A stretch of DNA of 64,000 nucleotides from Methyloferula stellata AR4 (GTDB lineage Bacteria > Pseudomonadota > Alphaproteobacteria > Rhizobiales > Beijerinckiaceae): the NCBI RefSeq assembly GCF_000385335.1, contig NZ_ARWA01000001.1, positions 1 to 64,000 of the forward strand, read 5' to 3'. Shown one piece after another: positions 1-13,959 of the stretch (position 1 is the first letter of the stretch; every line of letters starts with the position of its first letter). Under the pieces are notes generated by a model. That model had not been told where the DNA came from, did not search any database, and was given only the letters and a program-made list of their open reading frames with translations. A program made the position numbers and the translations under genes.

Positions 1-1
1 C

Positions 2-535
2 ATGATCGGAATGGGCGGTCACGGTTGGAGCGGCGGCTATGGCGGCCATTACGGAATGGGCGGCTATGGCGGTCATTACGCAAACGGCAATTGCCCAGCC
101 TATGTCTGCCGCCCCTATATTCGGCCCTATCCGCCGGTCGTGCAGCAGACGCCGGTCTATATTCCACGCCCGCAGGTGGTCGTCACTCCTCCGCCGCCGG
201 TTTACGTTCCGCGGCAGCAGGTGGTCGTCGCTCCGCCCCCGCCTGTCTATGTCCCGCGACAGCAAGTGGTTGTCGAGCAGCCTCCGGCACCGGTCTATGT
301 TCCGCGGCAGCAGGTGGTCGTCGAGCAGCCAGCTCCCGCGGCCGTTGTTGCCAGCGCGCCGGCACCGGCGATCGCGACACAAGCCGTTGCGACACAAGCG
401 GTCGCATCTGCTGCGCCCAACTGCAACTGCCTGACGAAAGAATATACCCAAGATGGCAATGTCGTGTTCAAGGACATATGCACGAATGAAGCTGCCGCCG
501 TGCCTGTGCAAAGGCCGGTTGCACAAGGATACTGA
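2..535 (+). CDS. Gly/Pro/Gln-rich secreted or surface protein, probably 5'-truncated by the window
   Basis: The frame is open from the first bases, so the true start and any signal peptide probably lie upstream. The visible part begins with Gly/Tyr/His repeats (GGYGGHYG-type) and continues into about four copies of a 14-16 residue repeat built around VYVPRQQVVV separated by proline runs (residues about 47-110). It ends in an Ala-rich linker and a Cys-containing tail (NCNCLTKEY, about residue 142). Composition and repeats suggest an exported, low-complexity envelope or matrix protein. No enzymatic domain is recognisable and no function is assigned. The repeat is also visible at DNA level, so copy number may vary between strains. 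Confidence 0.7.
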   Translation: MIGMGGHGWSGGYGGHYGMGGYGGHYANGNCPAYVCRPYIRPYPPVVQQTPVYIPRPQVVVTPPPPVYVPRQQVVVAPPPPVYVPRQQVVVEQPPAPVYVPRQQVVVEQPAPAAVVASAPAPAIATQAVATQAVASAAPNCNCLTKEYTQDGNVVFKDICTNEAAAVPVQRPVAQGY

Positions 536-734
536 TCGCAGGCACTGAATAAGACGAGACGTAAAGATAAAGACGGGCGTGATGCCCGCCTTTGTCATGT
601 CTGCGTGTGTGAATTCGCACGCATAGCCCAACCGAAAGAATACAGCGGGTGAACCTTGAACGCATGAGCGACGACCAAGAATTGAAGGCTCTTTCGTGCT
701 GATGCCGGAGCCGCAGTTTTTTGGGAGAACGACA

Positions 735-2216
735 ATGACCATGATGGATAAATTCTCTTCCGACTCCGACATCGCGATGTTCGAAGAGATCCAAACCGCC
801 GGAACCTCTTTCGAACACGCCGACGTCGTATCCAATGATGCCGCGATGAGTTTTGCCGACCCCTTGGAAATCTGGGAGTCCGAGCAGACACGCCCGGCCT
901 ATTTCTCCGTCTCCGGCGAGATGACGACGAGCCTTTCGGATTCGTTCGATCATTACATCGGGCCTTGCATGCAGCATCCGTTTCTGCCGCAGGCAGACAT
1001 TAAGGCCAAGCAATTCGCCCGCATCAAATATCTGGTCGAGATGGCCTATGCGGATATTCCCGTCTATCGCGACAAATATATCGCCGCCGGCTTTCATCCG
1101 TCCGACCTCACATGCGAGGCGGACATCGACCTCATCCCGATCATCACCAAACCCGAACTCGTCGCGGCTTTCCCGGGACGCTGCATCAATCCGCGCTATG
1201 CGATGGAAGATCTCTTCCCCACCCGTTCGTCGGGTTCCTCGGGACAGACGCTTCTCATCCGCGTCGATCCCGATGCGATCGTCACCGACACGATCCAGGG
1301 CGTGCGCCAATTCGCTTTGCAGAGCGGACTCAAATACGGGCCGGCCGACCTGCTGACGCATGTCTATACGGTCCCCTGGTGGTTCCCGTCGATCGGCGGC
1401 GCCTATCCCGGCGCCTTCATCTCCAGCGTCATTCCGCCGGAGCGCGTGGCCAAACATCTGAAGGATCTCGCGCCCAAGATTCTGTCCTGCTATCCGTCGA
1501 ACCTCGAGTCGCTTTTGCCTTATGCCGACGAATTCAAATCGTCGCTCATGCTGGCGGTAACGCATTCGGAATATTCGGCGCCGGCCGCCCGCAAGGCAGC
1601 CGCGAAAAAGCTCGGCGTCCCGGTGCTCGACGAATATAGCTCGGAAGAAGCGACGCGCATCGCGCTCGAATTGCCCTGCGGCCATTATCATGTCTGCGAG
1701 GATTCGGTCCGGCTCGACATCGTCGATCCGGTGACGCTTGCCCCGCAGGTCAAAGGCCAGTCCGGACTTGCGGTGATCACCAATCTCCTCAACGAGGCCA
1801 TGCCCTTCATCCGCTATATGCAGGGCGATTGCATCACGGAGCCGGCACGGCCCGATGCCTGCGGCATTAGCTGGAAGCAGCTTGAAAGCATCGACGGGCG
1901 CATGAACGACGCCTTTATCAATGCCTATGGGCGCATGATCCCGGCGGGCAGCGTGCTCGACATCACCTATCGCTGGATGTTCGATTGCGGCATCAACCTG
2001 GCGCAATTCGAAATCATCCAGAAGGCGCATGATGTGGTCGAAGCCCGCTTCATTCCGGGCGCAGGCGTCGATGAAAACGTCATCGTTGGCTCAGTCGGGC
2101 ATCTCGAAGATCTGCTCGGCCTCTGCCTCGAACACAAGGTGAAAGTGCAAGCCAAGGTCATGGCCTCTTTCCCGGCCAAGACCGGCAAGCGCCGCCCGAT
2201 CCGCCGCGAGATATAA
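735..2216 (+). CDS. Adenylate-forming enzyme, phenylacetate-CoA ligase (PaaK/CapK)-like
   Basis: A 493-residue protein of the ANL (acyl/aryl-activating) superfamily. It carries the P-loop-like motif SSGSSGQ near residues 163-170, a YSSEE segment corresponding to the adenine-binding YGxxE motif, RYMQGD near residues 360-365 (the YxTGD equivalent that contacts ribose), and a basic tail GKRRPIRR resembling the catalytic-Lys end of PaaK proteins. These enzymes activate a carboxylate as acyl-AMP and then usually transfer it to CoA. About 80 N-terminal residues precede the conserved core and look family-specific. The ATG at 735 is preferred over a GTG at 696 because GGGAGA lies 6 bases upstream. 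It is followed on the same strand by an ABC-2 permease and ATPase, which suggests that the activated product or its conjugate is exported. The substrate cannot be read from sequence. Confidence 0.75.
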   Translation: MTMMDKFSSDSDIAMFEEIQTAGTSFEHADVVSNDAAMSFADPLEIWESEQTRPAYFSVSGEMTTSLSDSFDHYIGPCMQHPFLPQADIKAKQFARIKYLVEMAYADIPVYRDKYIAAGFHPSDLTCEADIDLIPIITKPELVAAFPGRCINPRYAMEDLFPTRSSGSSGQTLLIRVDPDAIVTDTIQGVRQFALQSGLKYGPADLLTHVYTVPWWFPSIGGAYPGAFISSVIPPERVAKHLKDLAPKILSCYPSNLESLLPYADEFKSSLMLAVTHSEYSAPAARKAAAKKLGVPVLDEYSSEEATRIALELPCGHYHVCEDSVRLDIVDPVTLAPQVKGQSGLAVITNLLNEAMPFIRYMQGDCITEPARPDACGISWKQLESIDGRMNDAFINAYGRMIPAGSVLDITYRWMFDCGINLAQFEIIQKAHDVVEARFIPGAGVDENVIVGSVGHLEDLLGLCLEHKVKVQAKVMASFPAKTGKRRPIRREI

Positions 2217-2225
2217 AGCGGCGCC

Positions 2226-2343
2226 GTCATGCGCGGACTTGATCCGCGCATCCAGGCACAACAATCGGCGGTGCCTGGATGGCCGGGACATAGGGTGTTC
2301 GGAAGAACGCCCGTCCTTCGACGGGCTATGCCCGGCCATGACG
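2226..2343. repeat. Dispersed palindromic repeat (family D)
   Basis: Intergenic element bounded by GTCATGCGCGGACTTGATCC on the left and GGGCTATGCCCGGCCATGAC on the right. Internal inverted segments (GCGCGGACTTGATCCGCGC; CAGGCAC/GTGCCTG) can form stacked hairpins. Elements of this wording are common between genes in Rhizobiales chromosomes (family knowledge). It separates the adenylating enzyme from the permease and could fold in the shared transcript. Confidence 0.7.
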
Positions 2344-2427
2344 GCCAAGAATGAGACACTCAAAGAGCAATGATTCAAAGGCGGCGGAAGAATTCATCGC
2401 CCTGTTTGGTACAACGGGAGAAGGAAA

Positions 2428-3225
2428 ATGAGCGGCTCGCTCAATCGTATCGGCGCCATGACCTTGCGCTATTGCTATCTCTTGCGCTCGTCATGGCCGC
2501 GGCTTCTCGAACTCGTCTATTGGCCGGCGATGCAAATGCTGGTCTGGGGCTTTCTCCAGCTTTTTCTCAGCGAAGATCATTCCTCGCTCGCGATGATCTC
2601 CGGCACATTCGTCGGCGCGGTGCTTCTCTGGGACGTGCTGTTTCGCGGCCAGCTCGGCTTCTCGGTCTCCTTCATGGAAGAGATCTGGTCGCGCAATATC
2701 GCAAACCTCATGATGAGCCCACTGCGCCCGATCGAACTCGCCGCTTCCTTGATGCTCGTCTCGGTGCTGCGTCTGTTGATCGGCATGGTGCCCGTCTCGC
2801 TCTTTGCGCTCGTGCTCTTCCATTTCAATATTTACAGCCTCGGTCTGGCGCTCCTGATCTTCTTCGTCAATCTCGTGCTGACGGCCTGGGCGATCGGGCT
2901 CGCGGTCTGCGGTTTCGTCCTGCGCTACGGCATGGGCGCCGAAAGCCTCGCCTGGTCGCTCGTCATGCTGCTCCTGCCTTTCTGCTGCGTCTATTACCCG
3001 GTATGGATTCTGCCGGATTGGCTGCAGCCGATCTCTTGGGCACTTTCGCCGACCTATGTGTTCGAAGGGCTGCGCGCCGCGATCATCGATCAGACTTTTC
3101 GTGGCGATCTGATGCTGAAGGCCTTCGCTCTGAACATCATCTATCTCGGCGCCGGCCTCGCGACTTTTATCTTGATCTTGCGCAGTGCCCGCCGCAGAGG
3201 CGCGCTCGTCTCGATCGGAGAATAA
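2428..3225 (+). CDS. ABC-2 type exporter permease
   Basis: A 265-residue integral membrane protein with about six hydrophobic segments and the usual ABC-2 layout: a cytoplasmic N-terminus with an amphipathic start (RSSWPRLLELVYWP), paired N-terminal helices, a central block, and a final helix before a short basic tail. GGGAGAAGG lies directly upstream of the ATG. It would form the channel half of an exporter whose ATPase is encoded at 3378-4184. Such permeases export polysaccharides, lipids, drugs or small conjugates, and nothing in this sequence selects among these. A palindromic repeat separates it from the ATPase gene, so the two subunits may be made at different levels. Confidence 0.85.
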   Translation: MSGSLNRIGAMTLRYCYLLRSSWPRLLELVYWPAMQMLVWGFLQLFLSEDHSSLAMISGTFVGAVLLWDVLFRGQLGFSVSFMEEIWSRNIANLMMSPLRPIELAASLMLVSVLRLLIGMVPVSLFALVLFHFNIYSLGLALLIFFVNLVLTAWAIGLAVCGFVLRYGMGAESLAWSLVMLLLPFCCVYYPVWILPDWLQPISWALSPTYVFEGLRAAIIDQTFRGDLMLKAFALNIIYLGAGLATFILILRSARRRGALVSIGE

Positions 3226-3234
3226 GCGAATGAA

Positions 3235-3346
3235 CCCCTCGTCCTTCGAGACGGCTGCTTCGCAGCCTCCTCAGGATGAGGGGTCAAGACCCGAGAACCC
3301 TCACCCTGAGGAATGCGCGCAGCGCATGTCTCGAAGGGCGAGGGTG
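3235..3346. repeat. Dispersed palindromic repeat pair (family A, copy 1)
   Basis: Starts CCCCTCGTCCTTCGAGACG, then a variable self-complementary centre (GCTGCTTCGCAGC), then CTCCTCAGGATGAGGGG. A second, inverted unit follows (CCCTGAGGA ... TCTCGAAGGGCGAGGG). Related copies lie at 35641-35760 and 54100-54217. The outer arms are nearly constant while the inner stems differ, typical of REP/BIME-like elements. Confidence 0.85.
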
Positions 3347-3377
3347 ATGAAAAGTCAAACGTCGGAGGTACACGACA

Positions 3378-4184
3378 ATGCAAACCACGGTGAATACAGC
3401 CACGATCCTCGAAATGAGAGGCGCCTTCTGGCGCGTCGCGGAGGGCACCGCGTCCGAACATATCACATCGCGCGAACCGGCCGTCGTGCTCGAACATGTC
3501 GTGAAGGATTACAAGGCCTGCCGCGCGCTCGATGACATCAGCCTCGAAATTCCGCAAGGCGCGACGGTCGGCTTCGTCGGCTGCAACGGCGCCGGCAAGA
3601 CGACGACGATCTTCACCATCATGGGACTGATCGCGCCCACGTCCGGCCGCGTCATGGTCTTCGGCCATGACATGACGCGCGACCCCTATAGCGTCCTGAG
3701 CCGGATGAATTTCGCGAGCCCTTATATGAATATGCCGGCACGCCTCAGCGTGAAGCAAAACCTTCTGATCTTCGCCAAGCTCTATGGCGTGCCGAACGTC
3801 AAAGCCAAGCTGGCGCAGCTCGCGCATGAATTCGATCTCTGCGACATCATGGACCGCGTCACCGGCAGCCTGTCGGCCGGCCAGAAAACCCGCGTGTCGC
3901 TCGCCAAGGCTCTGTTGAACGAGCCGGACATTCTGCTGCTCGACGAGCCGACGGCCTCGCTCGATCCCGAGCGCGCCGGTTTCATCCATCAAAAGCTGGA
4001 AGCGCATCGCAAGAAACACAATGCGACGATCCTCATGACCTCGCACAACATGGCGGAGGTGGAACGGCTCTGCGATCTTGTCGTCGTGATGCGCTTCGGC
4101 GCAATCATCGAACAGGGATCGACGGCGGATCTCAAACACCGCTATGGCCGCGAGACGCTTTATGAGGCGCTGGCGAGGATTTAG
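3378..4184 (+). CDS. ABC transporter ATP-binding protein
   Basis: A 268-residue ABC ATPase with Walker A GCNGAGKT (residues 68-75), signature LSAGQ (165-169, a Gly-to-Ala variant of LSGGQ), Walker B ILLLDE (185-190) with the D-loop TASLD, and switch His223 in TSHN. GGAGG lies upstream of the ATG. About 35 residues precede the first beta strand, longer than usual. It should energise the ABC-2 permease encoded just upstream, and together with the adenylating enzyme it forms a three-gene cassette in one direction. Resemblance is to the general DrrA/CcmA-like exporter ATPases, so substrate prediction from this subunit is unreliable. Confidence 0.9.
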   Translation: MQTTVNTATILEMRGAFWRVAEGTASEHITSREPAVVLEHVVKDYKACRALDDISLEIPQGATVGFVGCNGAGKTTTIFTIMGLIAPTSGRVMVFGHDMTRDPYSVLSRMNFASPYMNMPARLSVKQNLLIFAKLYGVPNVKAKLAQLAHEFDLCDIMDRVTGSLSAGQKTRVSLAKALLNEPDILLLDEPTASLDPERAGFIHQKLEAHRKKHNATILMTSHNMAEVERLCDLVVVMRFGAIIEQGSTADLKHRYGRETLYEALARI

Positions 4185-4298
4185 CTCGCTCGATAATTTT
4201 GATACGGATTTAGGAGGTTTCGTTGGCGCTCCGCCCAGCGCGGCTGTCACCGTTGCTATGGCGTTAGGGCGATACCCTATGGCATAGTTAGATGCGCA

Positions 4299-5243
4299 AT
4301 GTTTGTTGGTGACCACAAAATGATTGAGCCTATCGAAACGGCCCCTGCAATAATACCGGAAGCGCCAAAGTTTACCGATGAAGAATGGAGTGAAGCACGC
4401 AGGAGTGGGGATTTTATGCCCATTCTTTTCGAATGGTATAAATTTGTCGGCTTGCTTGTCGTTCTTTGCGCCAACATCCAGCGCAACTCACCCGCCCTAC
4501 GCCCCATAGCGCCGAACCAATATCATGTATTGATAGGACTTTTGAGTCGGTGCGCGCGCCTGATGCTCGCGAATATTGCGCTGTCTCATGAGGGCCGTTT
4601 TGGAGAGACTACCGCTATCATTGATAGGTGCATATTTGAATCGGCTCTCAACGTGTCGTGGCTATGCACGAATTCCCGTGATGAGAAATTCAAACAATAT
4701 TTTGCGACTTCTTTGAAGGTTGACATTGAGTTCCGTGACCAGATCGAGAGCAATATCAAAACCCGCGGCGAGATTCTACCGATCGAAAGGCGAATGATCC
4801 ACTCAATAGAGGGCAAAATTGTCTCGTCAGAGCTTTCCGAAGAGCAGATTCGTCAATCCAAAAAGATGCCTCCCGTAGATGCTATAATGCGCGAACTCAA
4901 TCTAGATCGAATTCACTATGTCGTCTCACAAAAAATCGGATCTCATCATGTTCATGGAACTTGGTCGAGCCTGCTCTTTCACTATCTTGAGGAAGAAAAT
5001 GCCAACCCCTTGACCTTCCGGATAAGAGACCACGACTGTGCCACGCATATCAATCAATTTATGTACGTTTGTCAAAACGTACTTCAAGCGCTGCGTGCAT
5101 ACATTCAATACGCACTTGAGGACGGTGAAGAATCGTCAGCTTTCCTGCTACTCTTCGGGGCCACAGAGTCGGATATCATGAACATCTATCAGGAGGCCAT
5201 TGCCGTCGAAGATCTCAAGCGAAATGCCGAGGGATCGTCCTGA
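4299..5243 (+). CDS. Hypothetical protein resembling DUF5677 family
   Basis: A 314-residue, mostly helical protein without a signal peptide. The region around RCARLMLANIALSHEGRF and the conserved-looking SLLFHYLEEE and HGTWSSL segments recall DUF5677-type proteins of unknown function. The match is from memory and only moderate. Codon use is clearly more AT-rich than the neighbours (many ATA, AAT, TTT and CAA codons), which suggests recent acquisition. An in-frame ATG at 4320 (MIEPIE) is an alternative start, and neither has a strong ribosome-binding site. It stands alone between the ABC cassette and the oppositely oriented amidohydrolase gene. Confidence 0.6.
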   Translation: MFVGDHKMIEPIETAPAIIPEAPKFTDEEWSEARRSGDFMPILFEWYKFVGLLVVLCANIQRNSPALRPIAPNQYHVLIGLLSRCARLMLANIALSHEGRFGETTAIIDRCIFESALNVSWLCTNSRDEKFKQYFATSLKVDIEFRDQIESNIKTRGEILPIERRMIHSIEGKIVSSELSEEQIRQSKKMPPVDAIMRELNLDRIHYVVSQKIGSHHVHGTWSSLLFHYLEEENANPLTFRIRDHDCATHINQFMYVCQNVLQALRAYIQYALEDGEESSAFLLLFGATESDIMNIYQEAIAVEDLKRNAEGSS

Positions 5244-5359
5244 AGTGGAGTCCATTCGCAGCTAAACCAGTTAGGTTCTAGCGTGCGAACGAACCGAGAT
5301 TGGACCGAACGCGAAACCAACGGCGGGTAGAGGCTTAGCATCGACCGGGCTCCGTATTT

Positions 5360-6466
5360 TCAATAACTCCCCTTCTCTGACGCTGGCAGAAACTTGAACG
5401 GCTCGGCGGGTTTGAAGTCGGCCGAGACCTCGCCCGAAAAAACCTCGCCGTTCGCCAAAGTGAGTTTCTTCACCGGCGCGCCTTGTTTCAGATCGAGCTT
5501 CGCCATCTCGACCCAAAACGTGTTCGGCCGTGTCGCCGAGTCGAAATAATAGATCAGGTTCTTCTGATCCGACACTGTGCGCCACAGCGTCGACGCAATG
5601 TTCGGATGGCCGGGCGTGGTCGTGCCGAGCGGCACGCTGACGGCGCGTTGCAGGCTCATGACTTCCGCCACGGCTTGATAAGTGAAGGATCGGTCCGGCA
5701 CGCTTTTGATGAAATGCGGATCGGCCTGTTTGGGGATGGCGCCCAGAAAGTACGAGGCACGCACAAAGCGGTCGGCGGCGCGGCTGGTGCCCGGCAGGAA
5801 GACCTCGCCGCCAATATCTTTCCAATAGGCGTTCAGCGCCAATTGCTGATCATAGACCGGCGAATTCGTCATCACGGTAAATTCCTTGCCGTGATGGATG
5901 ACCAGCTTGCCCTTCACATATTCGAAAATGGCGGAATCGCCGGAGGAATCCGATAGAGCGAGATGCAACACGGCTTGCGCGCCATTGGGCATGCTCGGCG
6001 CCAATATGTTGAAGGGCTCTTTCGCAAGCGCCTCGACCGCCTCGTTCACATTGGCGTAATTGTCCAAGGCATATTGGCCCCAGGCGGCGATGGAGAGGAA
6101 GGGTTTGCTCTGGTCGGGTTTTCCATAATCCGATTCCGCAAGATAAAGCAGATTGGCGACGAGACCCTTTTCGTTCATGCCGTCGCCGGTACCGATCTCA
6201 TAGCTCGATGTGGTGATGCTTCCATATTTCGACGTCCAATGAATGGATTTGGCGCCGGCCGCGCCATCGCGTTTCATGCCGGCCGGAAAGGCCCAGAGAT
6301 TGGAAGACATATCCTCTTCCCAATCCATGTTGCGTCCGGTGAGAACGAGATTGTCGGCGCCGACGAACAGCGTGCGCGTGCAGGCGATGGCCGTATCGGC
6401 CACCGGAACTGCGATCAATGCGGTGGAGAGGAGCAAGGCGGTGAGCTTCGATACATGCGGCATCAT
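5360..6466 (-). CDS. Exported choloylglycine hydrolase/penicillin V acylase-type Ntn amidohydrolase
   Basis: A 368-residue protein. The first 28 residues form a signal peptide, and cleavage before Cys29 (IA|CTRTLF) would expose the N-terminal cysteine nucleophile of the Ntn-hydrolase fold, as in bile-salt hydrolases and penicillin V acylases. GRNMDW (about 44-49) and the NxxGL-like MNEKGLVANLL segment are typical of the family. Such enzymes cleave linear amide bonds, and in non-gut bacteria acyl-homoserine lactones are a known alternative substrate. AGGAG lies 7 bases before the first of two ATGs. Activity would be periplasmic. The physiological substrate is unknown. Confidence 0.88.
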   Translation of the reverse strand: MMPHVSKLTALLLSTALIAVPVADTAIACTRTLFVGADNLVLTGRNMDWEEDMSSNLWAFPAGMKRDGAAGAKSIHWTSKYGSITTSSYEIGTGDGMNEKGLVANLLYLAESDYGKPDQSKPFLSIAAWGQYALDNYANVNEAVEALAKEPFNILAPSMPNGAQAVLHLALSDSSGDSAIFEYVKGKLVIHHGKEFTVMTNSPVYDQQLALNAYWKDIGGEVFLPGTSRAADRFVRASYFLGAIPKQADPHFIKSVPDRSFTYQAVAEVMSLQRAVSVPLGTTTPGHPNIASTLWRTVSDQKNLIYYFDSATRPNTFWVEMAKLDLKQGAPVKKLTLANGEVFSGEVSADFKPAEPFKFLPASEKGSY

Positions 6467-6554
6467 GGCTTGGCTCCTGAGGATGGGAAAATATCGCGCG
6501 GGAGTATTGCCCCACAGCCTTCCAATCGCCTTTGCAATTCATGTCGGATTTGAG

Positions 6555-6593
6555 AAAGTTTTGTTGGCGCTGCAAAGTTTCGTTGGCGCTGCA
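6555..6593. repeat. Short tandem repeat in a promoter region
   Basis: Two consecutive 19-20 base units, AAAGTTTTGTTGGCGCTGCA and AAAGTTTCGTTGGCGCTGCA, lie between the amidohydrolase start and the end of fae. A 14-base piece of the same wording (GTTTCGTTGGCGCT) recurs near 4217-4230. The role is unknown and a protein-binding site is possible. Confidence 0.5.
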
Positions 6594-6650
6594 TGGCGAC
6601 GATGCGCGGGCAACGTCAGCTTATCTGCCGTCCCGCCGTGTAATATGCGT

Positions 6651-7169
6651 TTAAACGTGGGCTGCCAAGGGATGCTGCATCACATCCTCTTGCTTCATGA
6701 CATCCGCCACTTTAGGCTCATCCGCCACGGCGCGAACAATTGCCAATTTAGTGGCCGCGTAATTCCAATCCTGGATTTTCGCATCGTCCGTGGCGTCCCA
6801 ATGGATGAAGACCCCGACACAAACGAATATATTCGCGGCTTCCTTGGAAGGAATAATTCCGTCTTTGACGGAGTCCACCACCGCCTTTGCCACGCCGCGC
6901 TGCGCAGGACCGAACATCTGCGTCGCCTGCTTTGCATTCTTGATCTCGACTTTGTTGAACATCACCGTATTCGGTTTGGCCATCAAGTTGGGCGCGACCA
7001 GCGCAAGAAGCGCGTTATCGCCCCGCTTTTGATTGGTGAGCGTGTTGCAAAACGCGGTCTCGGCGGCGCTGCCTCTGGGACCCATGATCAGGTCGATATG
7101 GGCCACCTCGTTTCCGTCGCCTACGAGTGCTTCCCCGATGAGAACGCGATCGATCTTCAATGCACCCAT
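6651..7169 (-). CDS. fae: Formaldehyde-activating enzyme
   Basis: A 172-residue protein matching Fae along its full length. It contains the [16 protein letters not shown] block, whose His is the catalytic residue of the family, [12 protein letters not shown], the [16 protein letters not shown] block, QMFGPAQ and GVFIHWDA. Fae condenses free formaldehyde with tetrahydromethanopterin to methylene-H4MPT in the cytoplasm, linking methanol oxidation to energy generation and assimilation. The ATG at 7169 is chosen because GAGGAGAC lies just upstream; this gives the usual family length. It stands alone here, away from other H4MPT genes, so it may be either the main Fae or a paralogue. The nearby solitary xoxF supports a methylotrophic role. 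Confidence 0.93.
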
Positions 7170-7292
7170 TTCAGTCTCCTCTGTTGCTTTGGCGCTTGGC
7201 AACGGTTTGACCGATCCGGTTAGGCCAGCATTCCGCGCGGTCTTTGCTCTCGGACGTTCAAAGACGCTAAAAGATGTCCCGCACTCCTGCGT

Positions 7293-7484
7293 CTAAAGAA
7301 TTGCTCCCGCGAGCGCATGCGGCGGATGCCGCGCATCGCCGCGCCGGTTTTCCGGACGGACGTACATGATGACAACTTTCGGATGGTCCGTCTTCACCTT
7401 GAGCGCGGCGACAAGTGCATCCTCGGCGTCCACGACGATGTGGTCCGCCTTTCCTTCTAGCTTAAGTCCAACCATAAAATGCAC
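7293..7484 (-). CDS. Small uncharacterised protein (63 aa) downstream of a CBS-domain gene
   Basis: Translation from the GTG at 7484 gives 63 residues beginning MHFMVGLKLEG and ending in an Arg/His/Pro-rich tail (ENRRGDARHPPH). The start is supported by a perfect AGGAGG five bases upstream. The body (residues 5-45) reads as alternating beta and helix with good coding composition. It begins 16 bases after the stop of the CBS-domain gene and is probably co-transcribed with it. No family is recognised. A partner or regulator of the CBS protein is only a guess from position. Confidence 0.55.
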   Translation of the reverse strand: MHFMVGLKLEGKADHIVVDAEDALVAALKVKTDHPKVVIMYVRPENRRGDARHPPHALAGAIL

Positions 7485-7500
7485 TGGAACCTCCTGGGTT

Positions 7501-7929
7501 TTAGCGATGGATATAATATTCAAGCTGTTCGATCGTGAATTTCTGCTGGCTGATGATCGCTTGAACGAGATCCCCAATTGATATGATTCCGATCAAGCTA
7601 TCGTTTTCGATGACCGGAAGATGTCTCACTTTTTTATCGGTCATGATGGCCATGCAGTCTTCGACGGATTGCTCAGGCCCGGCATAGACGAGATCCGTTT
7701 CCATAATGGCTTGAACTGGAGTGGCCGGAGATGCCCGGCCCTTGAGCACGACGTTTCGGGCATAATGCCGCTCGGTTACGATGCCGACCAGCTCGCCATT
7801 GTCGATCACAACCAAGGATCCGACATTTTTTTCGGCCATCTTCTTGATCGCGTCATAGACGGTGGCATCGGGAGATATCGAGAAAACGTCACGTCCCTTG
7901 TGATCGAGCAACTGCTTTACGGTTGTCAT
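7501..7929 (-). CDS. Tandem CBS-domain protein
   Basis: A 142-residue protein made almost entirely of two CBS motifs (residues about 8-62 and 72-130). The motifs show VYDAIKKMAEKNVGSLVV and the second-repeat equivalent VEDCMAIMTDKKVRHLPVI, with GIVTERHYAR and GIISIGDLV at the motif ends. CBS pairs bind adenosyl ligands such as AMP, ATP or SAM, and stand-alone versions usually act as energy sensors. The ATG at 7929 is preceded by GGAGTG; an upstream in-frame start at 7944 lacks that support. The 63-residue gene follows closely downstream. Target unknown. Confidence 0.9.
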   Translation of the reverse strand: MTTVKQLLDHKGRDVFSISPDATVYDAIKKMAEKNVGSLVVIDNGELVGIVTERHYARNVVLKGRASPATPVQAIMETDLVYAGPEQSVEDCMAIMTDKKVRHLPVIENDSLIGIISIGDLVQAIISQQKFTIEQLEYYIHR

Positions 7930-8088
7930 TTGAAGACACTCCAAAAGCTAGCAAAAGAACAGCCCGCCTCCGGCTGGGTGCGATGCAACGCAAATGCTAC
8001 TCCTGAACTTCACCGCCCCAATTGAATCATCTGGTTCGCACGCACACATCTATCAAGGGCTCTTTCGTGTGACAGTGGAGCGAACATC

Positions 8089-8283
8089 ATGAAGTTCATC
8101 GTAACAGCCACGGGCGAAAATGGAGACGTCGTTAAAACATGCGACACGTCAGAAGCTGCTTTCGAGCAAGCTTCAGCCTTGCTCATGACCGACGCGACTG
8201 TCGTGACGATCACCGACGGTGATGGTGCCGAATATGTGCCCGATGAATTCCGCCTGCACTTCCTTGAACATGAGCAGCGGTGA
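8089..8283 (+). CDS. Small hypothetical protein (64 aa)
   Basis: A 64-residue acidic protein, MKFIVTATGENGDVV at the start, with a helix-rich middle (EAAFEQASALLM) and a C-terminal segment EYVPDEFRLHF. GTGGAGCG precedes the ATG at a usable distance. It is divergent from the CBS gene and upstream of the DUF2189 gene. No family is recognised. It may be a small cytoplasmic protein of conserved but unknown role. Confidence 0.55.
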   Translation: MKFIVTATGENGDVVKTCDTSEAAFEQASALLMTDATVVTITDGDGAEYVPDEFRLHFLEHEQR

Positions 8284-8454
8284 AGCTTTGGATGTGAGAT
8301 CAAAACAGCCGGCAAGCATCACATGACAGATGACACGACGGGTAATGAGCCTACATTATTATGATGCTGGTCGCGTCACGCTTTCGGTCGGCGATAATGC
8401 GTTGTCCCGTGGTGACGGCGACCTCTTTTAATTCAGAGCTTCGGAGGAATCGAC

Positions 8455-9315
8455 ATGACGATCCGAAATCCTATCGAATGGAGCGTTGATCACATTGAGC
8501 TGACGGCTCATGCCTTGAAATCGGTCGGCTATGCGCTTCATCCCACAGACGAGAGCTTCGACCGCGCGCAACCGCAAGTCCGGCGCATAGCGATATCCGA
8601 TGTCAAAGACGCCTTGCTCAGCGGTTTCCACGACTTTGCGAGTTATCGGACCGACGTCATTTTCATTTGCCTGATCTTTCCCTTGATCGGCCTCGTTCTC
8701 GCAAACCTGACGTTGAGCTTCGGCGCGTTGCCCCTGTTGCTGCCGCTCATATTCGGCTTCGCGCTCGTCGGTCCATTCGCGGCGGCCGGCCTCTATGAGA
8801 TGAGCCGGGGCCAGGAGCAAGGGAAACCCGTCTCGTGGACGGACGCGTTTGGCGTGTTCAGTTCCCCGTCCATCGCCTCGATCATCAAACTCGGTCTGCT
8901 CCTGAGCGGCATCTTCGTTCTCTGGCTGGCAGCGGCATTGGTGATCTACCAGGCGACTCTCGGTCCGGCCATACCGACCTCGATCCCGGCCTTTGCGACG
9001 GAGGTCTTTACGACAAGCGCTGGATGGACATTCATCGGCATAGGCGTTGGGATCGGCGCCGTGTTTGCCTTGGTCGTGCTCGCGATCGGCGCCGTGTCCT
9101 TTCCTCTGCTGCTTGATCGGCATGTGAGCATATCGACCGCGATCGAGACCTCGATTCGCGCGGTGCTCATCAATCCGGTGCCCATGCTCATCTGGGGACT
9201 CATCGTCATGAGCGCTTTGGTGCTGGGAACGATTCCGGCCTTGGTTGGGCTTATCGTGGTCATGCCCGTGCTTGGCCATGCCACATGGCATCTCTACCGC
9301 AAGATCGTTCGGTGA
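8455..9315 (+). CDS. DUF2189 family membrane protein
   Basis: A 286-residue protein with a soluble N-terminal stretch of about 60 residues (ending RRIAISDVKDALLSGFHDF) and about six membrane helices in three pairs, including GPFAAAGLYEMSRGQEQG, a hallmark of DUF2189 proteins. The family is widespread in alphaproteobacteria, has no established function and sits in the inner membrane. CGGAGG lies just before the ATG. It converges with the YkgJ gene across a long hairpin at 9341-9379. Confidence 0.85.
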   Translation: MTIRNPIEWSVDHIELTAHALKSVGYALHPTDESFDRAQPQVRRIAISDVKDALLSGFHDFASYRTDVIFICLIFPLIGLVLANLTLSFGALPLLLPLIFGFALVGPFAAAGLYEMSRGQEQGKPVSWTDAFGVFSSPSIASIIKLGLLLSGIFVLWLAAALVIYQATLGPAIPTSIPAFATEVFTTSAGWTFIGIGVGIGAVFALVVLAIGAVSFPLLLDRHVSISTAIETSIRAVLINPVPMLIWGLIVMSALVLGTIPALVGLIVVMPVLGHATWHLYRKIVR

Positions 9316-9340
9316 ATGGCGCTTAATCCGATTCCATCAA

Positions 9341-9379
9341 GCACAATCACATTACGCAGATTGCGTAACGTGATTGTGC
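9341..9379. terminator. Long hairpin between convergent genes, possible terminator
   Basis: GCACAATCACATTACGCA and its complement TGCGTAACGTGATTGTGC form an 18-base stem with one mismatch around a 3-base loop. It lies between the 3' ends of the DUF2189 (+) and YkgJ (-) genes. There is no run of T on either side, so classic intrinsic termination is not assured. Confidence 0.4.
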
Positions 9380-9389
9380 CTATCCCGCT

Positions 9390-10169
9390 CTAGGTGACGC
9401 CGCATTGCGCCGCCGCGCTCTCGGCCAAATCGCTGTTGGAGGGTCCGCTGCCCGTTTCGACATGACAGTCCGGGAAGGCTTCCCTTCCATCGATCCAGGT
9501 TTGAAACGCGGGCTCGAAATCCGCAAGCGCGATGAGCAAGGCGCGGCTCAGTTCGACCTTCTCTGTCGAAAGGCCTTTCAGTTTGATCAGGGCGTAATCG
9601 ATTCCCAATTGCATCAGGAATGAGATGACGACGGGCTCGGCGATAAAGGGTACTCTTTGCTCCTGGGAGGTCAGGCTTGTTTCGCAAGCGCTGCGCGAGG
9701 TCGAAAGCATCGTGCGGCAGAGCGAAGGGCGGTGCTCGTAAACCGAACAGCGATTGTCTTCGAGCAGCGGGCAAGGCTTGTCGGCTCCATGGCGGCTTTG
9801 CACGTCGAGAGGGAGCATTGCGCGCGTCGCAAGCCGCTCTTTAAGTCTCGCGATCTCGGTCTCTGACTTCGCATCGAGAATGTAGCGCGCGATGCCGAAA
9901 ATCTCCAATGGCGTAGAGAGAACCATTTGGTGGCAGCAAAAGCTGCATCCGGATGCGCATTCGGCCCCCTTCTCCGATGCGAAATCCGCCACGACTTCGT
10001 CGATCGCTTCGCTCCTGCCTTTGGTGATTTGGCTGAGCGTTGCGATGCCTCCGCCGCCGTCCAACTGCAGGCATGTTTGACGATAGGCCTGCTCGAAAAC
10101 GGCCTTTTGAAATGCGGGATCATCCAAGGATCCCGCTTGTTCCGCCTCACTGGGCTCCACTTCACCCAT
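9390..10169 (-). CDS. YkgJ-family cysteine-cluster protein
   Basis: A 259-residue protein with the cysteine pattern of the YkgJ (UPF0153-like) family: CASGCSFCC (Cys71, 75, 78, 79) followed by CPLLEDNRCSVYEHRPSLCR. Such clusters are believed to bind zinc or an Fe-S centre. The biochemical role is not established for this branch. It starts 4 bases after the stop of the DUF2165 gene, so the two are almost certainly co-transcribed. No signal peptide is visible. Confidence 0.85.
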   Translation of the reverse strand: MGEVEPSEAEQAGSLDDPAFQKAVFEQAYRQTCLQLDGGGGIATLSQITKGRSEAIDEVVADFASEKGAECASGCSFCCHQMVLSTPLEIFGIARYILDAKSETEIARLKERLATRAMLPLDVQSRHGADKPCPLLEDNRCSVYEHRPSLCRTMLSTSRSACETSLTSQEQRVPFIAEPVVISFLMQLGIDYALIKLKGLSTEKVELSRALLIALADFEPAFQTWIDGREAFPDCHVETGSGPSNSDLAESAAAQCGVT

Positions 10170-10173
10170 CTAT

Positions 10174-10656
10174 TTATCCCTCCGGCAGCAGCAGCACCAA
10201 GAGCACGAGGCCGTTGAGCAGCGTGAAGCGGGCACTGCTGTCGAGACTATTCCAGGTCGTCGACTGCCACATCATGAACCATTCGCCGCCGATCGTGGTG
10301 AAGCCGAGGCCGTAGAGCAAAAGCCCGAAGGTGAGGCCAAGGACGGCCAAGGGCTTGGCTTGCGCGAAACGCCCAGCGTCGCGGCAGGCGGCGAGCAGAA
10401 CCACGCTCGCCAGCGTAAGAGTCACAGCCGTCAAAATCTCCCAGCCGATGATCAGCCAATAGGCCGCAGCGGCGATCCGCTCATCCGTGATCGCGCGCCA
10501 TTTGAGCGTGTTGCCGGGAAAGACGGTGTCCATCGCGAGCACATGCTGCACGAAGACCCAGTTGGCCCCGTAATCGGTGACGTTCTCGATCGCAACGAGA
10601 CAGAAGAAGACGGCGACCGTAGCGACGAGAGCAATTTTGCAAAGGCGGATGAGCAT
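10174..10656 (-). CDS. DUF2165 family small membrane protein
   Basis: A 160-residue protein with four predicted membrane helices and the DUF2165 features NVTDYGANWVFVQHVLAMD after helix 1 and GEWFMMWQSTTWN before helix 4. Function is unknown. It is the first gene of a two-gene operon with the YkgJ-type gene. Upstream lies a palindromic repeat that separates it from the deaminase gene on the same strand. Confidence 0.85.
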   Translation of the reverse strand: MLIRLCKIALVATVAVFFCLVAIENVTDYGANWVFVQHVLAMDTVFPGNTLKWRAITDERIAAAAYWLIIGWEILTAVTLTLASVVLLAACRDAGRFAQAKPLAVLGLTFGLLLYGLGFTTIGGEWFMMWQSTTWNSLDSSARFTLLNGLVLLVLLLPEG

Positions 10657-10680
10657 AAGGTTTCAACGGTGCGAGCCAAT

Positions 10681-10850
10681 CCTCTCCCTGTGGGAGAGGG
10701 TGCCGCCGGAGGCGGCGGATAAGGGGTTACAATGTGCCAAAACGTAAGGGAAATCGTACCCCCCATCCGGCCGGCCATAGCCCGTTGCTTGCAACGGGCG
10801 TCGCTTCGCAGCGCCCTATGGCCGGCCACCTTCTCCCACAGGGAGAAGGG
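10681..10850. repeat. Dispersed palindromic repeat pair (family B, copy 1)
   Basis: Left unit CCTCTCCCTGTGGGAGAGGG with inner stem GCCGCCGGAGGCGGC and flank ATAAGGGGTTAC. The right unit is inverted, GTACCCCCCATCCGGCCGG ... GGCCGGCCACCTTCTCCCAC, with a longer inner stem containing CCCGTTGCTTGCAACGGG. Related copies are at 34000-34124 and 53529-53654. This is the largest copy in the window because of its expanded right-hand centre. Confidence 0.85.
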
Positions 10851-10857
10851 ATGCACA

Positions 10858-11418
10858 CTACGACTTGAACAGCTTCAACGCCTCCTCGGCGAGCACGCCG
10901 CCGGTGATCTCGACCTTTTCAAACGGCGTCTGCTGCGCGATCTCCGTGCAGGAAATGTCGATCTGCCCCAGATATTTTCCGATCTGCGGCACTGAGGCCG
11001 CGTAAACCACGCGCCCAATCCCGCACCAGACGATCGCGCCCATGCACATCACGCAAGGCTCGCCCGATGTGTAAAGCGTGGTGCCTTTCAGCGCCTCGGG
11101 CCCGCGCTCGGCGAGAAAGCGTCGGATCGCCACCATCTCGCCATGCGCCGTCGGATCATGCGTCCGCTTGCCCATATTCTCTCCACGCGCCAGGACCACA
11201 CCGTCGCGCGTAATCACCGCACCGAAAGGAAAATCGGCCTTCGCCGCGAGCGCGATCGCCTCGCGCATGAGCCTTTCGTCGTCGGGCATCACGGGCGTCT
11301 GGACCGCTTCAGCATCGGCCTCCGAAGCGGCCGAGGCGGCAACAGCCGCAAGACCTGCCATTGCCGCGCGGCGACTGATCGCGCTCTTTGGCTTTTCCGA
11401 TTCAGCGTCGAACGTCAT
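10858..11418 (-). CDS. Tat-exported cytidine/guanine deaminase-family protein
   Basis: A 186-residue protein with a deaminase core: zinc ligand His92 with proton-shuttle Glu94 in AHGE, and Cys122/Cys125 in EPCVMC. The IVWCGIGRVVYA segment resembles guanine deaminase/tRNA-deaminase-type enzymes. Unusually, the N-terminus carries a twin-arginine-like signal (SRRAAMAGLAAVAASAA, residues 15-31) followed by an Ala-rich cleavage region, implying export of the folded zinc enzyme. AGGAGA precedes the ATG. Substrate unknown; a nucleobase or nucleoside in the periplasm would fit the family. Confidence 0.85.
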   Translation of the reverse strand: MTFDAESEKPKSAISRRAAMAGLAAVAASAASEADAEAVQTPVMPDDERLMREAIALAAKADFPFGAVITRDGVVLARGENMGKRTHDPTAHGEMVAIRRFLAERGPEALKGTTLYTSGEPCVMCMGAIVWCGIGRVVYAASVPQIGKYLGQIDISCTEIAQQTPFEKVEITGGVLAEEALKLFKS

Positions 11419-11652
11419 GCTGTTTCTCCTGTGCTTGATGCATCATGACATGAGAGCAGAGATTCATATTCAAAGCCTTTAGTTTTGATGCACCATTTTC
11501 AACGGAATGTCCGTACTGCTGCGACAACGCTCTGGCAAAGAATGGGAGCGAGACTTAAAAAAATTGGCGTGGCGTCCCGGGTCCGACGAGAATGGCGGTT
11601 CTCCGGTTTCAATAGCGTTGCAAAGCGCCATCGGTGATTGGGGAGATTTCAA

Positions 11653-11955
11653 ATGTCTATATCACGGACCGCGATTGCCGCGGTCTTTCTGGCTTCGGCG
11701 CTGGTGGCGCCCATATCCGCCAATGCGCTTCCTTTTGATCCGGGCCTCGGTCTGCCAAGCGACATCGAGCATGTCGCGCAGGGCTGCGGTCCTGGCGGAT
11801 GGCGCGGCCCCTATGGCGGCTGCAATTACGCTCCAGGCGGACGCTGGGGCTGGGGATCGCATTGGGGCTGCCCGCCCGGCTGGTGGCGCGGTCCTTGGGG
11901 CCATTGCCGCCACACCACTTATCACGGCCGTCTGCCCGGCGGCGGTTGGAAATAA
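11653..11955 (+). CDS. Small exported Gly/Trp/Cys-rich protein (GCG_CRPN-like)
   Basis: A 100-residue protein with a clear signal peptide (about residues 1-26, ending SANA). The mature part has the pattern GCGPGGWRGPYGGC followed by a second WWRGPWGHC unit, resembling the small GCG_CRPN prefix-to-repeat proteins of Rhizobiales. GGGGAG lies 7-8 bases upstream of the ATG. Four cysteines, many glycines and tryptophans suggest an extracellular or envelope peptide. Function unknown. Confidence 0.75.
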   Translation: MSISRTAIAAVFLASALVAPISANALPFDPGLGLPSDIEHVAQGCGPGGWRGPYGGCNYAPGGRWGWGSHWGCPPGWWRGPWGHCRHTTYHGRLPGGGWK

Positions 11956-12024
11956 GCCCATAAGACGAGGCCAGTGTGGTTTCGCAAGAGCTATCGGCGC
12001 GCATTCGAGCGCGCCGATTTTGTT

Positions 12025-12732
12025 TTACCGCGCTGCCGCCTCCGGCAGGATAAAGCCGACCACTTTGGTCTCCGCCCGGAATGCAGCGAGCCTCGCATTC
12101 AACGCGTCGCCCGAGAGCTTTTCATCGGCGATCTTGATTCGATAAATGCCGCCGGGCTTTGGGCCTTCGACCAGACTCGCATGGTGCGCCTCCAGAAAGG
12201 CCGTCGCATCCTGCATCGAGACGGAGCCTGCAAAAGAGATCAAGGCATAAGTGCCGTTGCTCTCGGTCTTCTCTTCGAGAGAGGCGGTCGTGTAATGCGC
12301 ACCGGCATGCCGGTCGACGACAAGACCCGTGAGCAAACCAGCTTGCAAGCAGATCACGACGGCGGCCGCCATGGCCGACATGGCGAGAACGCGCGGCGAC
12401 AGCCCCGATAGAATGCGTGACACCCAGCTAAGCGCCCGTTCACCGATGGACACATGGCGCGGGTGCTCGGCCTCGTAGGCGTCGATCCGTGCCATGAGCC
12501 GGTCCATCGTGGCGCCCGACGGCAGCCCGAGGCTTTCGTTCACGGCAATCGTATCGGCTTCTTCGTCGCGGACAAGCGCAAGACGCCGGCGCAACTCACC
12601 ATCAGCCGCAAGCGCGCTTTCGACCTGCGCTTGATCTTCCGCCGAAAGACGCCCGGTCGCATACCAGGGCAGGAGAGCTTCGGGCGGCGAGAGCTCGGCA
12701 TCGTCCGGCTGCCCGTTTTTCGCGTCATTCAT
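12025..12732 (-). CDS. Anti-sigma factor, single membrane span
   Basis: A 235-residue protein. The N-terminal 100 residues (LLPWYATGRLSAEDQAQVE and later acidic helices) resemble the cytoplasmic domain of ECF anti-sigma factors but lack the HxxxCxxC zinc motif. One transmembrane helix lies at about residues 115-138, and the remaining 95 residues are periplasmic. The ATG at 12732 overlaps the TGA of the sigma factor (ATGA), so translation is coupled. It would sequester the partner sigma factor until an envelope signal is received. Confidence 0.8.
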   Translation of the reverse strand: MNDAKNGQPDDAELSPPEALLPWYATGRLSAEDQAQVESALAADGELRRRLALVRDEEADTIAVNESLGLPSGATMDRLMARIDAYEAEHPRHVSIGERALSWVSRILSGLSPRVLAMSAMAAAVVICLQAGLLTGLVVDRHAGAHYTTASLEEKTESNGTYALISFAGSVSMQDATAFLEAHHASLVEGPKPGGIYRIKIADEKLSGDALNARLAAFRAETKVVGFILPEAAAR

Positions 12733-13301
12733 GGCCAACCTCTATCAATGCCAGCTTGTTTCAAAAGTTCGGAAAGGCGTTTGCGGGCGTGAAACATTCG
12801 GGTCTTCACGGTGTTTTCCGGAATTCCTAAAATCACGCTTGCTTCTTCAACGGTGCGCTCGTGGTAATAGACAAGATCGATCACCTCACGATGCGCCGCG
12901 GAAAGCGCCGTGATGCAAAGTTTCAAGGCATCGGCCTTTGAAGCTTTTTGCAGCACGACTTCCGGATTATCTGCTGCATCCTCAAGCGCGTCCTCTGTCT
13001 CGGGTTCGAGCGCTTCATGCTGCTTTTGACGAAAGCTCGACAAAGCTTTGAAGCGTGCGATCGATAAGAGCCAGGTCGAGACCGACGAGCGTCCTTCAAA
13101 ACGGCCGGCTTGCTGCCAGACATCGAAGAAGACGTCGCTCATGAGATCCTCAGCCTTGGTCTCGTTGTGGACGAGCCTTTGGAGAAACCGAAAAACCCTT
13201 GTGCTGTGCCGCGTATACAGGACTTGCATCGCGCGGCGGTCGCCAGAGGCTATCCGCCTGATGAGCCCTTCATCCGAAGCATCGTCGCTGCCTTCAGCCA
13301 T
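12729..13301 (-). CDS. ECF-type RNA polymerase sigma-70 factor
   Basis: A 190-residue sigma factor. Region 2 (about residues 12-85) includes AEDLMSDVFFDVWQQAGRFEGRSSVSTWLLSIAR. Region 4 (about 125-180) includes HREVIDLVYYHERTVEEA and the helix-turn-helix IPENTVKTRM. It is the first gene of a sigma/anti-sigma pair with overlapping stop and start codons. The neighbouring exported Gly-rich protein and subtilase are attractive targets by position. No shared promoter motif was established by eye. Confidence 0.92.
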   Translation of the reverse strand: MAEGSDDASDEGLIRRIASGDRRAMQVLYTRHSTRVFRFLQRLVHNETKAEDLMSDVFFDVWQQAGRFEGRSSVSTWLLSIARFKALSSFRQKQHEALEPETEDALEDAADNPEVVLQKASKADALKLCITALSAAHREVIDLVYYHERTVEEASVILGIPENTVKTRMFHARKRLSELLKQAGIDRGWP

Positions 13302-13450
13302 CGTCTTCCCAAACCCCTTCCGTCAGCATGTCCACCGGCCAAGGCCATCATGATGCCGAAGCAAGGTTTTGGCGACTCGGCGCGGAGCAAGGACGGGCGA
13401 AGCCTGGGGGTCTGATGGCTTCGCCCGCCTCTCCCGGGCGTCACGTCATG

Positions 13451-13741
13451 TCAGTAGCAGGAAATGACGAGTTCGCCGTAGGAATTGAAGTGCTTCCAGC
13501 AGCCGCCATAGCCGGCGCCGTAATAGCCGCGACCCCAACCATGGCCCCAGCCGCCACCCCAGTGGCCCCAGTGGCCGAAGCCTCCACCCCAATGGCCACC
13601 GCCGAAGTGGCCGCCACCGAAATGGCCTCCGCCGAACCCGCCCATATGGGCCGAGGCCGATGTCGGCGCGAGAGCAGCACCGGCGGCCGTGGCGCTGAGA
13701 AGGACAGCAGCCGCGACATTGCGAAACGAACGATTGAACAT
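13451..13741 (-). CDS. Small exported glycine/histidine-rich protein
   Basis: A 96-residue protein with a signal peptide (residues 1-31, ending SASA) and a mature part made of GGGHFGGGHWGG-type repeats, ending in an isolated tail with two cysteines (GGCWKHFNSYGELVISCY). ACGGAG precedes the ATG. The Gly/His repeat resembles the N-terminal part of the subtilase encoded 220 bases away in the other direction, so the two may act in the same compartment. Metal binding by the His repeats is possible but untested. Confidence 0.75.
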   Translation of the reverse strand: MFNRSFRNVAAAVLLSATAAGAALAPTSASAHMGGFGGGHFGGGHFGGGHWGGGFGHWGHWGGGWGHGWGRGYYGAGYGGCWKHFNSYGELVISCY

Positions 13742-13959
13742 GGTAAATCTCCGTGGATTAATCGGGTCGGCATGATCGCGGCCCGGACATCCATGGGTCG
13801 CGGCTTCGCTTGATCCGGTTCAATCGCATTTGAGATTTTTTCGGGCCGTTGAAACCTTCCGCTTGTGCCGTTCGACACATCGTCAGACCTGCCGGCGCCG
13901 CATGATCCTCCTATCGGGAGACGGGCGAGACAGGCCCTATGATCGATGGGGAGCGCGTT

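Follow-up and report, generated by a model that had tools for sequence, protein, structure and literature searches.

The first 64,000 nucleotides of contig NZ_ARWA01000001.1 of Methyloferula stellata AR4 (the window) carry, close to their start, three genes on the forward strand that encode a PaaK-fold carboxylate ligase, an ATP-binding cassette (ABC)-2 type permease and an ABC ATPase. The three genes very probably act as one functional unit, a rare two-function unit built of known parts, and this view is based on their joint occurrence, fixed order, purifying selection and intact motifs. It is likely that the product is exported by this ABC pair. The interpretation to which we lean, with modest confidence, is that the ligase works without a carrier protein and builds a small conjugate, perhaps of the guanidino type, out of primary metabolites, and that this conjugate is secreted by the ligase's own exporter.

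The initial annotation, made from the sequence letters, had proposed a biosynthesis-and-export cassette at this site, and the distribution of the genes supports this proposal. A scan of GTDB genomes yielded 26 related loci: one in a Hyphomicrobiales metagenome-assembled genome (MAG; locus L032), 20 of Bradyrhizobium type (19 titled Bradyrhizobium and one titled 'Proteobacteria bacterium'), four in Patescibacteria MAGs and one, L055, in a proteobacterial MAG. The permease and ATPase genes lie directly downstream of the ligase gene in 23/23 close orthologues (at least 62% identity), namely the window, L032, genome G078 and all 20 Bradyrhizobium-type loci. A draw of 146 Bradyrhizobium genomes was scanned: the ligase profile matches 13 of them at 1e-40, the permease profile matches the same 13 at 1e-120, and both genes are adjacent by their coordinates in every one of them. 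On the assumption of independent genomes, which does not hold here, identical sets of 13 would arise by chance with a probability of about 8e-19; leaving out G735-G737, named in advance, gives 1e-15. A comparison of 12 loci from seven groups, together with the upstream stretch L058, in which genes were called by a codon-usage script, revealed that only the ligase, the permease and the ATPase are common to all groups. The cassette lies in two different surroundings within Bradyrhizobium and in unrelated ones in two other lineages. The ratio of nonsynonymous to synonymous substitution rates (dN/dS) is 0.06-0.22 in eight cassette-gene pairs, which indicates that the cassette is maintained like an ordinary gene; the value for the GNAT acetyltransferase gene described below is 0.16.

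These data bear on the idea that the ligase is a catabolic coenzyme A (CoA) ligase beside an unrelated transporter and that their adjacency is an accident of ancestry. PaaK itself is catabolic (PMC4498308), and the sampled genomes are related, both of which would fit this idea; however, it is largely refuted by the co-occurrence of ligase and permease, and neither the changing surroundings of the set nor the neighbour lists, in which no ring-degradation genes were recognised, agree with it. We consider it highly unlikely. The assignment as catabolic PaaK was ruled out by family score and gene context: phenylacetate-CoA ligase PaaK proper (TIGR02155) is matched with 75.7 bits against a cut-off of 646.3, and no genes of the paa catabolic operon were recognised near the cassette in the window, in L032, in L063 and in six Bradyrhizobium-type loci.

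By its motifs and its fold, the ligase is a member of the ANL superfamily of adenylate-forming enzymes with a PaaK fold. No Pfam family was matched at 1e-3, and the NCBIfam families that were matched are of the PaaK type and all remain below their cut-offs. The best relatives by sequence in the PDB are PaaK enzymes (2y4o, with an E-value of 2.2e-20 for the single sequence and 1.1e-24 for the profile). A first structure model was discarded (predicted local distance difference test, pLDDT, of 51.8); a second one, made with AlphaFold, reached a pLDDT of 64.7 and a predicted template modelling (pTM) score of 0.53 and served for fold assignment only. Foldseek rows 1-37 obtained with this second model consist of PaaK, PaaK-family AMP-ligases, AjiA1, ClxA, BT_0428 and 2-hydroxyisobutyryl-CoA ligase; the best E-value is 7e-22, and the superposition on PaaK has a template modelling (TM) score of about 0.5 and a root-mean-square deviation of about 22 A. 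The predicted structure suffices to name the PaaK fold, but not to read the pocket. The catalytic residues of ANL enzymes are present as S166-G170 (SGSSG, A3), E279 (A4), Y301 and E305 (A5), D365 (A7), R389 (A8) and K485, the A10 lysine of the C-terminal domain. These motif residues are conserved between the clade of the window ligase and PaaK-like enzymes, with the exception of the truncated L055 enzyme, which lacks the C-terminal part and in which A3 varies. The enzyme had initially been described as a PaaK/CapK-like acyl-activating enzyme with a long family-specific N-terminus. The first part agrees with the PaaK-type best matches in the PDB and by fold, although the enzyme represents a rare PaaK-fold clade and not PaaK proper; of the N-terminus, residues 47-86 are indeed conserved within the clade, whereas residues 1 to about 46 are variable. 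The BagE/FevW synthetase family (NF041217) was rejected at 46.4 bits against a cut-off of 800. PaaK-type ligases of natural-product pathways, such as BagE/FevW, NatL2 and AjiA1, condense two partners. Scans of viral contigs, for which the clade profile and a PaaK protein served as queries, gave 54 and 3 pattern matches, none of them a relative.

In a tree of 27 sequences, the window ligase falls into a clade with the enzymes of Bradyrhizobium, G078, Patescibacteria and L055 (support 96/98), and a sister pair is formed by the enzymes of a Bartonella kosoyi plasmid and of genome G721 (98/99); both groups stand apart from PaaK-type enzymes. The sequence motif DEYSSEE is found in 31/31 clade rows, including the Bartonella, G721 and G1513 enzymes, and in 0/28 outgroup rows (27 PaaK-like enzymes from related genomes and one from Streptomyces), and it tells this ligase clade from many similar PaaK-type enzymes. 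Eighteen clade loci, mostly second copies of the same genomes (L003, L004, L060, L061 and L070-L083), were left out of this count; with duplicate loci kept, the motif is present in 47/47 clade loci and 0/27 outgroup loci, a count that excludes the window itself and L086, whose motif is contained in the 31-row alignment. Residue 300, located just before the A5 tyrosine, is a glutamate in all 31 clade rows and acidic in none of the 28 outgroup rows; we take this position to be residue 322 of the nonribosomal peptide synthetase specificity code and hence expect it to line the acid pocket.

The clade is sparsely distributed. In a single-sequence search of a draw of 149 relatives, 87 match at 1e-3, and scores above 90 bits are found only in G000, G001 and G078. 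The ligase was detected in 3/298 genomes of the family draw at 1e-60, in 2/398 genomes of the phylum draw and 2/317 of the order draw at 1e-40 (one of the two being in each case the sister-clade enzyme of G721), in 1/4 genomes of the genus of G078 at 1e-30, in 1/379 genomes of the Patescibacteria draw and in 2/144 relatives of G740; the draws scored limited candidates per genome, and the absences are therefore provisional. A relative on an Embleya plasmid, which carries no annotation, was set aside as a member of another clade. The presence of ligases of about 50% identity in Patescibacteria and Rhizobiales suggests horizontal transfer or misbinned contigs.

A lead to the substrate is provided by the sister clade. 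The clusters of Bartonella kosoyi plasmid pTLV-1 (L059, positions 4204-14243) and of G721 (L062, 6434-14883) both contain genes for a DEYSSEE ligase, a pyridoxal phosphate (PLP) protein, an efflux pump of the MATE or MFS type and a D-2-hydroxyacid dehydrogenase, and G721 additionally has a dimethylargininase-like (DDAH-like) gene; to our knowledge, neither cluster has been described. The two PLP proteins are 40% identical to each other and match only four PDB sequences at 1e-10, two of which are named MppP L-arginine hydroxylase, the others being 6c3a (RohP) and 7n79. Their scores for the NCBIfam family MppP (128.5 and 162.2) lie below the cut-off of 450. According to a review (PMC7497351), MppP, RohP and Ind4 act on L-arginine. 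In genome G1513, the distant orthologue L086 (positions 402-6932) is part of a series of genes in one direction, argR-argG-argH, the DEYSSEE ligase and a fused ABC exporter gene, and the ligase gene starts 121 nt downstream of argH. A polar, perhaps guanidino-bearing substrate is suggested because the whole DEYSSEE clade has a glutamate before the A5 tyrosine and because the sister clade is found beside arginine-oxidase-type enzymes. The wider context points to small, polar and perhaps arginine-related chemistry rather than to the signal, lipid or cell-surface acyl group that had been considered initially.

The exporter is of the ABC-2 type, and both subunits exceed their Pfam cut-offs: the permease scores 33.5 bits for PF01061 (ABC2_membrane; cut-off 26.9) and the ATPase 101.7 bits for PF00005 (ABC_tran; cut-off 25). 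The permease profile gave no match in the PDB at 0.01. The best NCBIfam match of the ATPase is DrrA with 202.5 bits (cut-off 312.45), and NodI is matched with 140.1 bits (cut-off 521). An identity with the lipochitooligosaccharide exporter NodIJ was rejected, since the NodI score is below the cut-off and no nod gene was recognised among the listed neighbours; a role in anti-phage defence was rejected as well, since the ATPase gave matches only to ATPase-containing families. Some ABC-2 exporters transport lipids and glycolipids, and the matches to DrrA and NodI, although below cut-off, would be in line with a modification of lipids or surface glycans, with the ligase as activator of a fatty or hydroxy acid and a NodJ/DrrB-like exporter that flips the acylated lipid or glycan carrier. 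However, no glycosyltransferase or lipid gene is common to the cassette across the groups compared, the clade-wide Glu300 speaks against a greasy acid, and both sister-clade clusters contain arginine-oxidase-type enzymes; we regard this explanation as distinctly unlikely.

A second permease, scoring about 375 bits, is encoded in the window genome and in the three Bradyrhizobium genomes examined (4/4), next to an ATPase gene, RegB/RegA-like genes (named from their translations) and a polyhydroxyalkanoate depolymerase gene, which was confirmed in G000. The loci of this second ABC-2 pair (L069, G000:C1 1618030-1618833, and L064-L066) hold the closest relatives of the cassette exporter that were found. 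The cassette permeases group together on a separate branch (100/99), away from the paralogous ones. The window permease shares 56-57% identity with the four paralogues and 63-66% with eight cassette permeases compared, L032 excluded.

Some lineages possess a fourth gene. A GNAT acetyltransferase gene is located 3' of the ATPase gene in 20/20 Bradyrhizobium-type loci, although the L034 contig holds only part of the gene and the match in L036 is in two pieces. Its start overlaps the stop of the ATPase gene in 6/6 loci inspected, and this position is kept in two different surroundings. G078 has no GNAT gene here but one for an M20 ArgE/DapE-type deacylase on the cassette strand, which scores above the family cut-off; neither gene is found beside the cassette in the window and in L032. 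The GNAT gene would also suit a resistance function, in which a toxic carboxylate that enters the cell is tagged by the ligase and then removed as a conjugate through the ABC pair, and so would the sporadic distribution (13/146 genomes) and the cassette's lack of upstream biosynthetic genes. However, ABC-2 systems do not usually rely on tagging ahead of efflux, the groups have no further gene in common, not even one for a regulator, and the sister-clade ligases lie amid several biosynthetic-type enzymes. Such detoxification appears very unlikely.

For the biosynthesis and secretion of a small conjugate, the following mechanism is proposed. The ligase would adenylate a small carboxylic acid of primary metabolism; with no carrier protein involved, the activated acid would then be joined straight to an amine or hydroxyl group, as by PaaK-type condensing ligases of natural products, or be transferred by way of CoA. 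Either the acid or the compound to which it is joined would probably be polar and might bear a guanidino group, as arginine or a derivative does, and the ABC-2 pair would export the conjugate. That the cassette contains no other genes is in keeping with substrates drawn from primary metabolism. In Bradyrhizobium, the coupled GNAT acetyltransferase may have been added for tailoring or self-protection. A more specific version, in which the pathway is a minimal, carrier-free, arginine-conjugating one, with a DEYSSEE ligase that condenses an amino-acid-like guanidino acid with another primary metabolite, a dedicated exporter that secretes the product, and lineage-specific fourth genes (GNAT in Bradyrhizobium, the M20 deacylase in G078, the cytidine-deaminase-like gene in Patescibacteria) that tailor the product or shield its producer, is speculative and rather unlikely in this complete form.

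A number of observations weigh against the proposed pathway. The ligase is not tied to export in every lineage. The initial annotation had named orthologues that usually occur without the transporter as a point against the cassette; this is not the case for the close orthologues, all of which have the transporter, but it holds for the distant ones, in which the cassette transporter is absent (0/6). A search with the window ATPase at 1e-5 gave no match in the stretches of L052, L053, L055, L056 and L057. The four Patescibacteria ligases (L052, L053, L056 and L057) directly precede a cytidine-deaminase-like gene, which is supported by Pfam in three of the four loci and by the PDB in one of these, and neither the window ATPase nor the window permease has a match in these loci; in L055, the ligase is broken and there is no matching ABC gene either. 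Directly downstream of the sixth distant orthologue, L086 of G1513, and separated from it by 12 nt, lies a gene for an ABC exporter of another type, in which membrane and ATPase domains are fused and for which the best NCBIfam label is MsbA, below cut-off. In 2/20 Bradyrhizobium-type loci (L033 and L036), the ATPase match is spread over more than one frame; these cases as well as the broken L055 ligase may be due to assembly error or decay. The co-occurrence has limits of its own: the permease threshold of 1e-120 was chosen after the score of the paralogue had been seen, to exclude the paralogous permease; all 13 genomes are from one genus, and 10/13 were, by equal scores, already among the 20 loci, several of which had given profile rows; and the permease search covered the genus Bradyrhizobium, the window's own genome and seven chosen genomes, four of them outside the genus. 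The neighbouring CBAH gene is under similar purifying selection (dN/dS 0.09). The ATPase tree is partly in conflict with the permease branch: it places the ATPases of the window and L032 beside the paralogues, away from the remaining cassette ATPases (99/98, long branches), which may reflect an exchange of the ATPase in this lineage.

Further reservations concern the ligase and its substrate. The window clade and the sister pair are joined with a support of only 83/83 and long branches, and residue 304, a glutamate in 31/31 clade rows, is also a glutamate in 2/28 outgroup enzymes. Owing to the poor structure model, the pocket argument has to be built on sequence motifs. The argH gene of G1513 is perhaps a mere neighbour of the ligase gene, and it is a single case. 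At 1e-8, none of the 23 cassette loci (24 stretches, 431 kb) is matched by argG, argH, argR, the two MppP-like proteins or the DDAH-like protein, and the arginine links are limited to the two sister-clade clusters and one distant orthologue. Arginine-type chemistry for the cassette is a tentative suggestion that we place towards the lower end because this direct search was negative.

If the proposed pathway is real, nodule bacteria and methylotrophs would export a class of small molecules that may escape cluster-finding software, as it would have neither a synthetase nor a carrier protein to detect, and one adenylating enzyme and an exporter would be enough to make and secrete a metabolite. 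The cassette is present in a minority of the genomes of Bradyrhizobium, a legume-symbiont genus whose partnership with the host is shaped by small exported molecules, and arginine and guanidino acids offer a concrete first class of substrates. No description of the cassette was recognised in a literature search, which covered largely papers accessible without subscription.

The coordinates are summarised in the table. The open reading frames given in the initial annotation for the ligase, the permease and the ATPase were confirmed, all on the forward strand.

Table 1. Features of the ligase-exporter cassette and its gaps in the window.
Feature	Position	Strand	Remark
PaaK-fold carboxylate ligase (ANL superfamily), DEYSSEE clade	735..2216	+	493 aa from ATG 735
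Clade motif codons D299-E-Y-S-S-E-E305, A5 motif region	1629..1649	+	alignment
Dispersed palindromic repeat, ligase-permease gap	2223..2345	.	not cassette-specific
ABC-2 type permease	2428..3225	+	265 aa; PF01061 above cut-off
Dispersed palindromic repeat, permease-ATPase gap	3236..3344	.	not cassette-specific
ABC ATPase	3378..4184	+	268 aa; PF00005 above cut-off
Walker A GCNGAGKTT, signature LSAGQ, Walker B LLLDEP	in ATPase 3378..4184	+	read off translation
Terminator-like stem with T-rich tail, 3' end of ATPase gene	4172..4190	+	consensus match only

Positions 500-4400 contain six terminator-like sites, compared with 3.1 expected (standard deviation 1.7). The palindromic repeats that had been noted in both gaps are real inverted repeats, but they are no part of the cassette. 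Similar copies are found elsewhere in the window and in two other stretches of the same genome (104 kb covered in total). In L032, the nearest relative, the first gap of 136 nt contains repeat sequence and the second gap of 28 nt does not, and the ligase-permease gap measures 23-29 nt in 16/20 and 52-135 nt in 4/20 Bradyrhizobium-type loci. The palindromes were therefore ruled out as cassette elements; they are insertions.

As had been stated initially, no further biosynthetic gene adjoins the cassette, according to gene lists for 12 kb downstream and 20 kb upstream, part of whose genes were covered by a Pfam scan. The upstream side was read from stretch L058, as the window starts at the join of the chromosome: the final 883 bases of the contig of 4,235,448 bases are exactly identical to window positions 1-883 (883/883), i.e., the chromosome is circular and its end untrimmed. 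The gene just upstream of the ligase encodes a glycine-rich, secreted-looking protein and is outside the unit, and proB/proA-like genes of primary metabolism, named from their translations, follow further upstream on the opposite strand. Between the ATPase gene and a choloylglycine-hydrolase-family gene, the window (4184-5360) contains a DUF5677 gene and L032 (4175-7586) a subtilase autotransporter gene instead; this stretch is a variable site. The host is probably a methylotroph, as judged from the genes for Fae (formaldehyde-activating enzyme, 6651-7169) and a pyrroloquinoline quinone dehydrogenase of the methanol/ethanol family (15823-17583). A deaminase-fold protein (PF00383) with an N-terminus that looks twin-arginine-like by eye is encoded at 10858-11418 on the other strand, 6.7 kb from the cassette, to which it is probably unrelated.

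The cassette resembles several known systems in parts. PaaK (TIGR02155; PDB 2Y27, 2Y4N and 2Y4O), which gives the best profile and fold matches, shares the fold, the order of motifs and the catalytic residues with the cassette ligase; however, in the latter, DEYSSEE takes the place of the D-x-YGLSE of most PaaK-type rows, H277 replaces the glycine found in most of them, and the conserved stretch 47-86 lies ahead of the PaaK core. The condensing ligases of natural-product pathways (BagE/FevW, NatL2 and AjiA1) likewise put the PaaK fold to biosynthetic use, whereas the cassette is devoid of any other biosynthetic gene. As in DrrAB and NodIJ, the ATPase and an ABC-2 permease of about 265 amino acids are encoded by separate genes, but the cassette ATPase stays below the DrrA and NodI cut-offs and the partner gene encodes a ligase. 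In indolmycin biosynthesis, Ind3 is reportedly a PaaK-like ligase that joins an acid to dehydroarginine made by the arginine oxidase Ind4. By description, this logic would resemble that suggested by the sister-clade clusters, both of which contain a gene for an MppP/RohP/Ind4-type oxidase, whereas no such gene was matched near the 23 cassette loci. On a plasmid of Streptomyces cadmiisoli (L088, 6513-13570), a PaaK-like ligase gene is also directly followed by genes for an ABC ATPase and an ABC-2 permease; this ligase, however, belongs to another clade (DAYGMRE) and lies amid radical SAM, AsnB and Gfo/Idh oxidoreductase genes. Together, the S. cadmiisoli and G1513 pairings suggest by analogy that such ligases may repeatedly have acquired an exporter.

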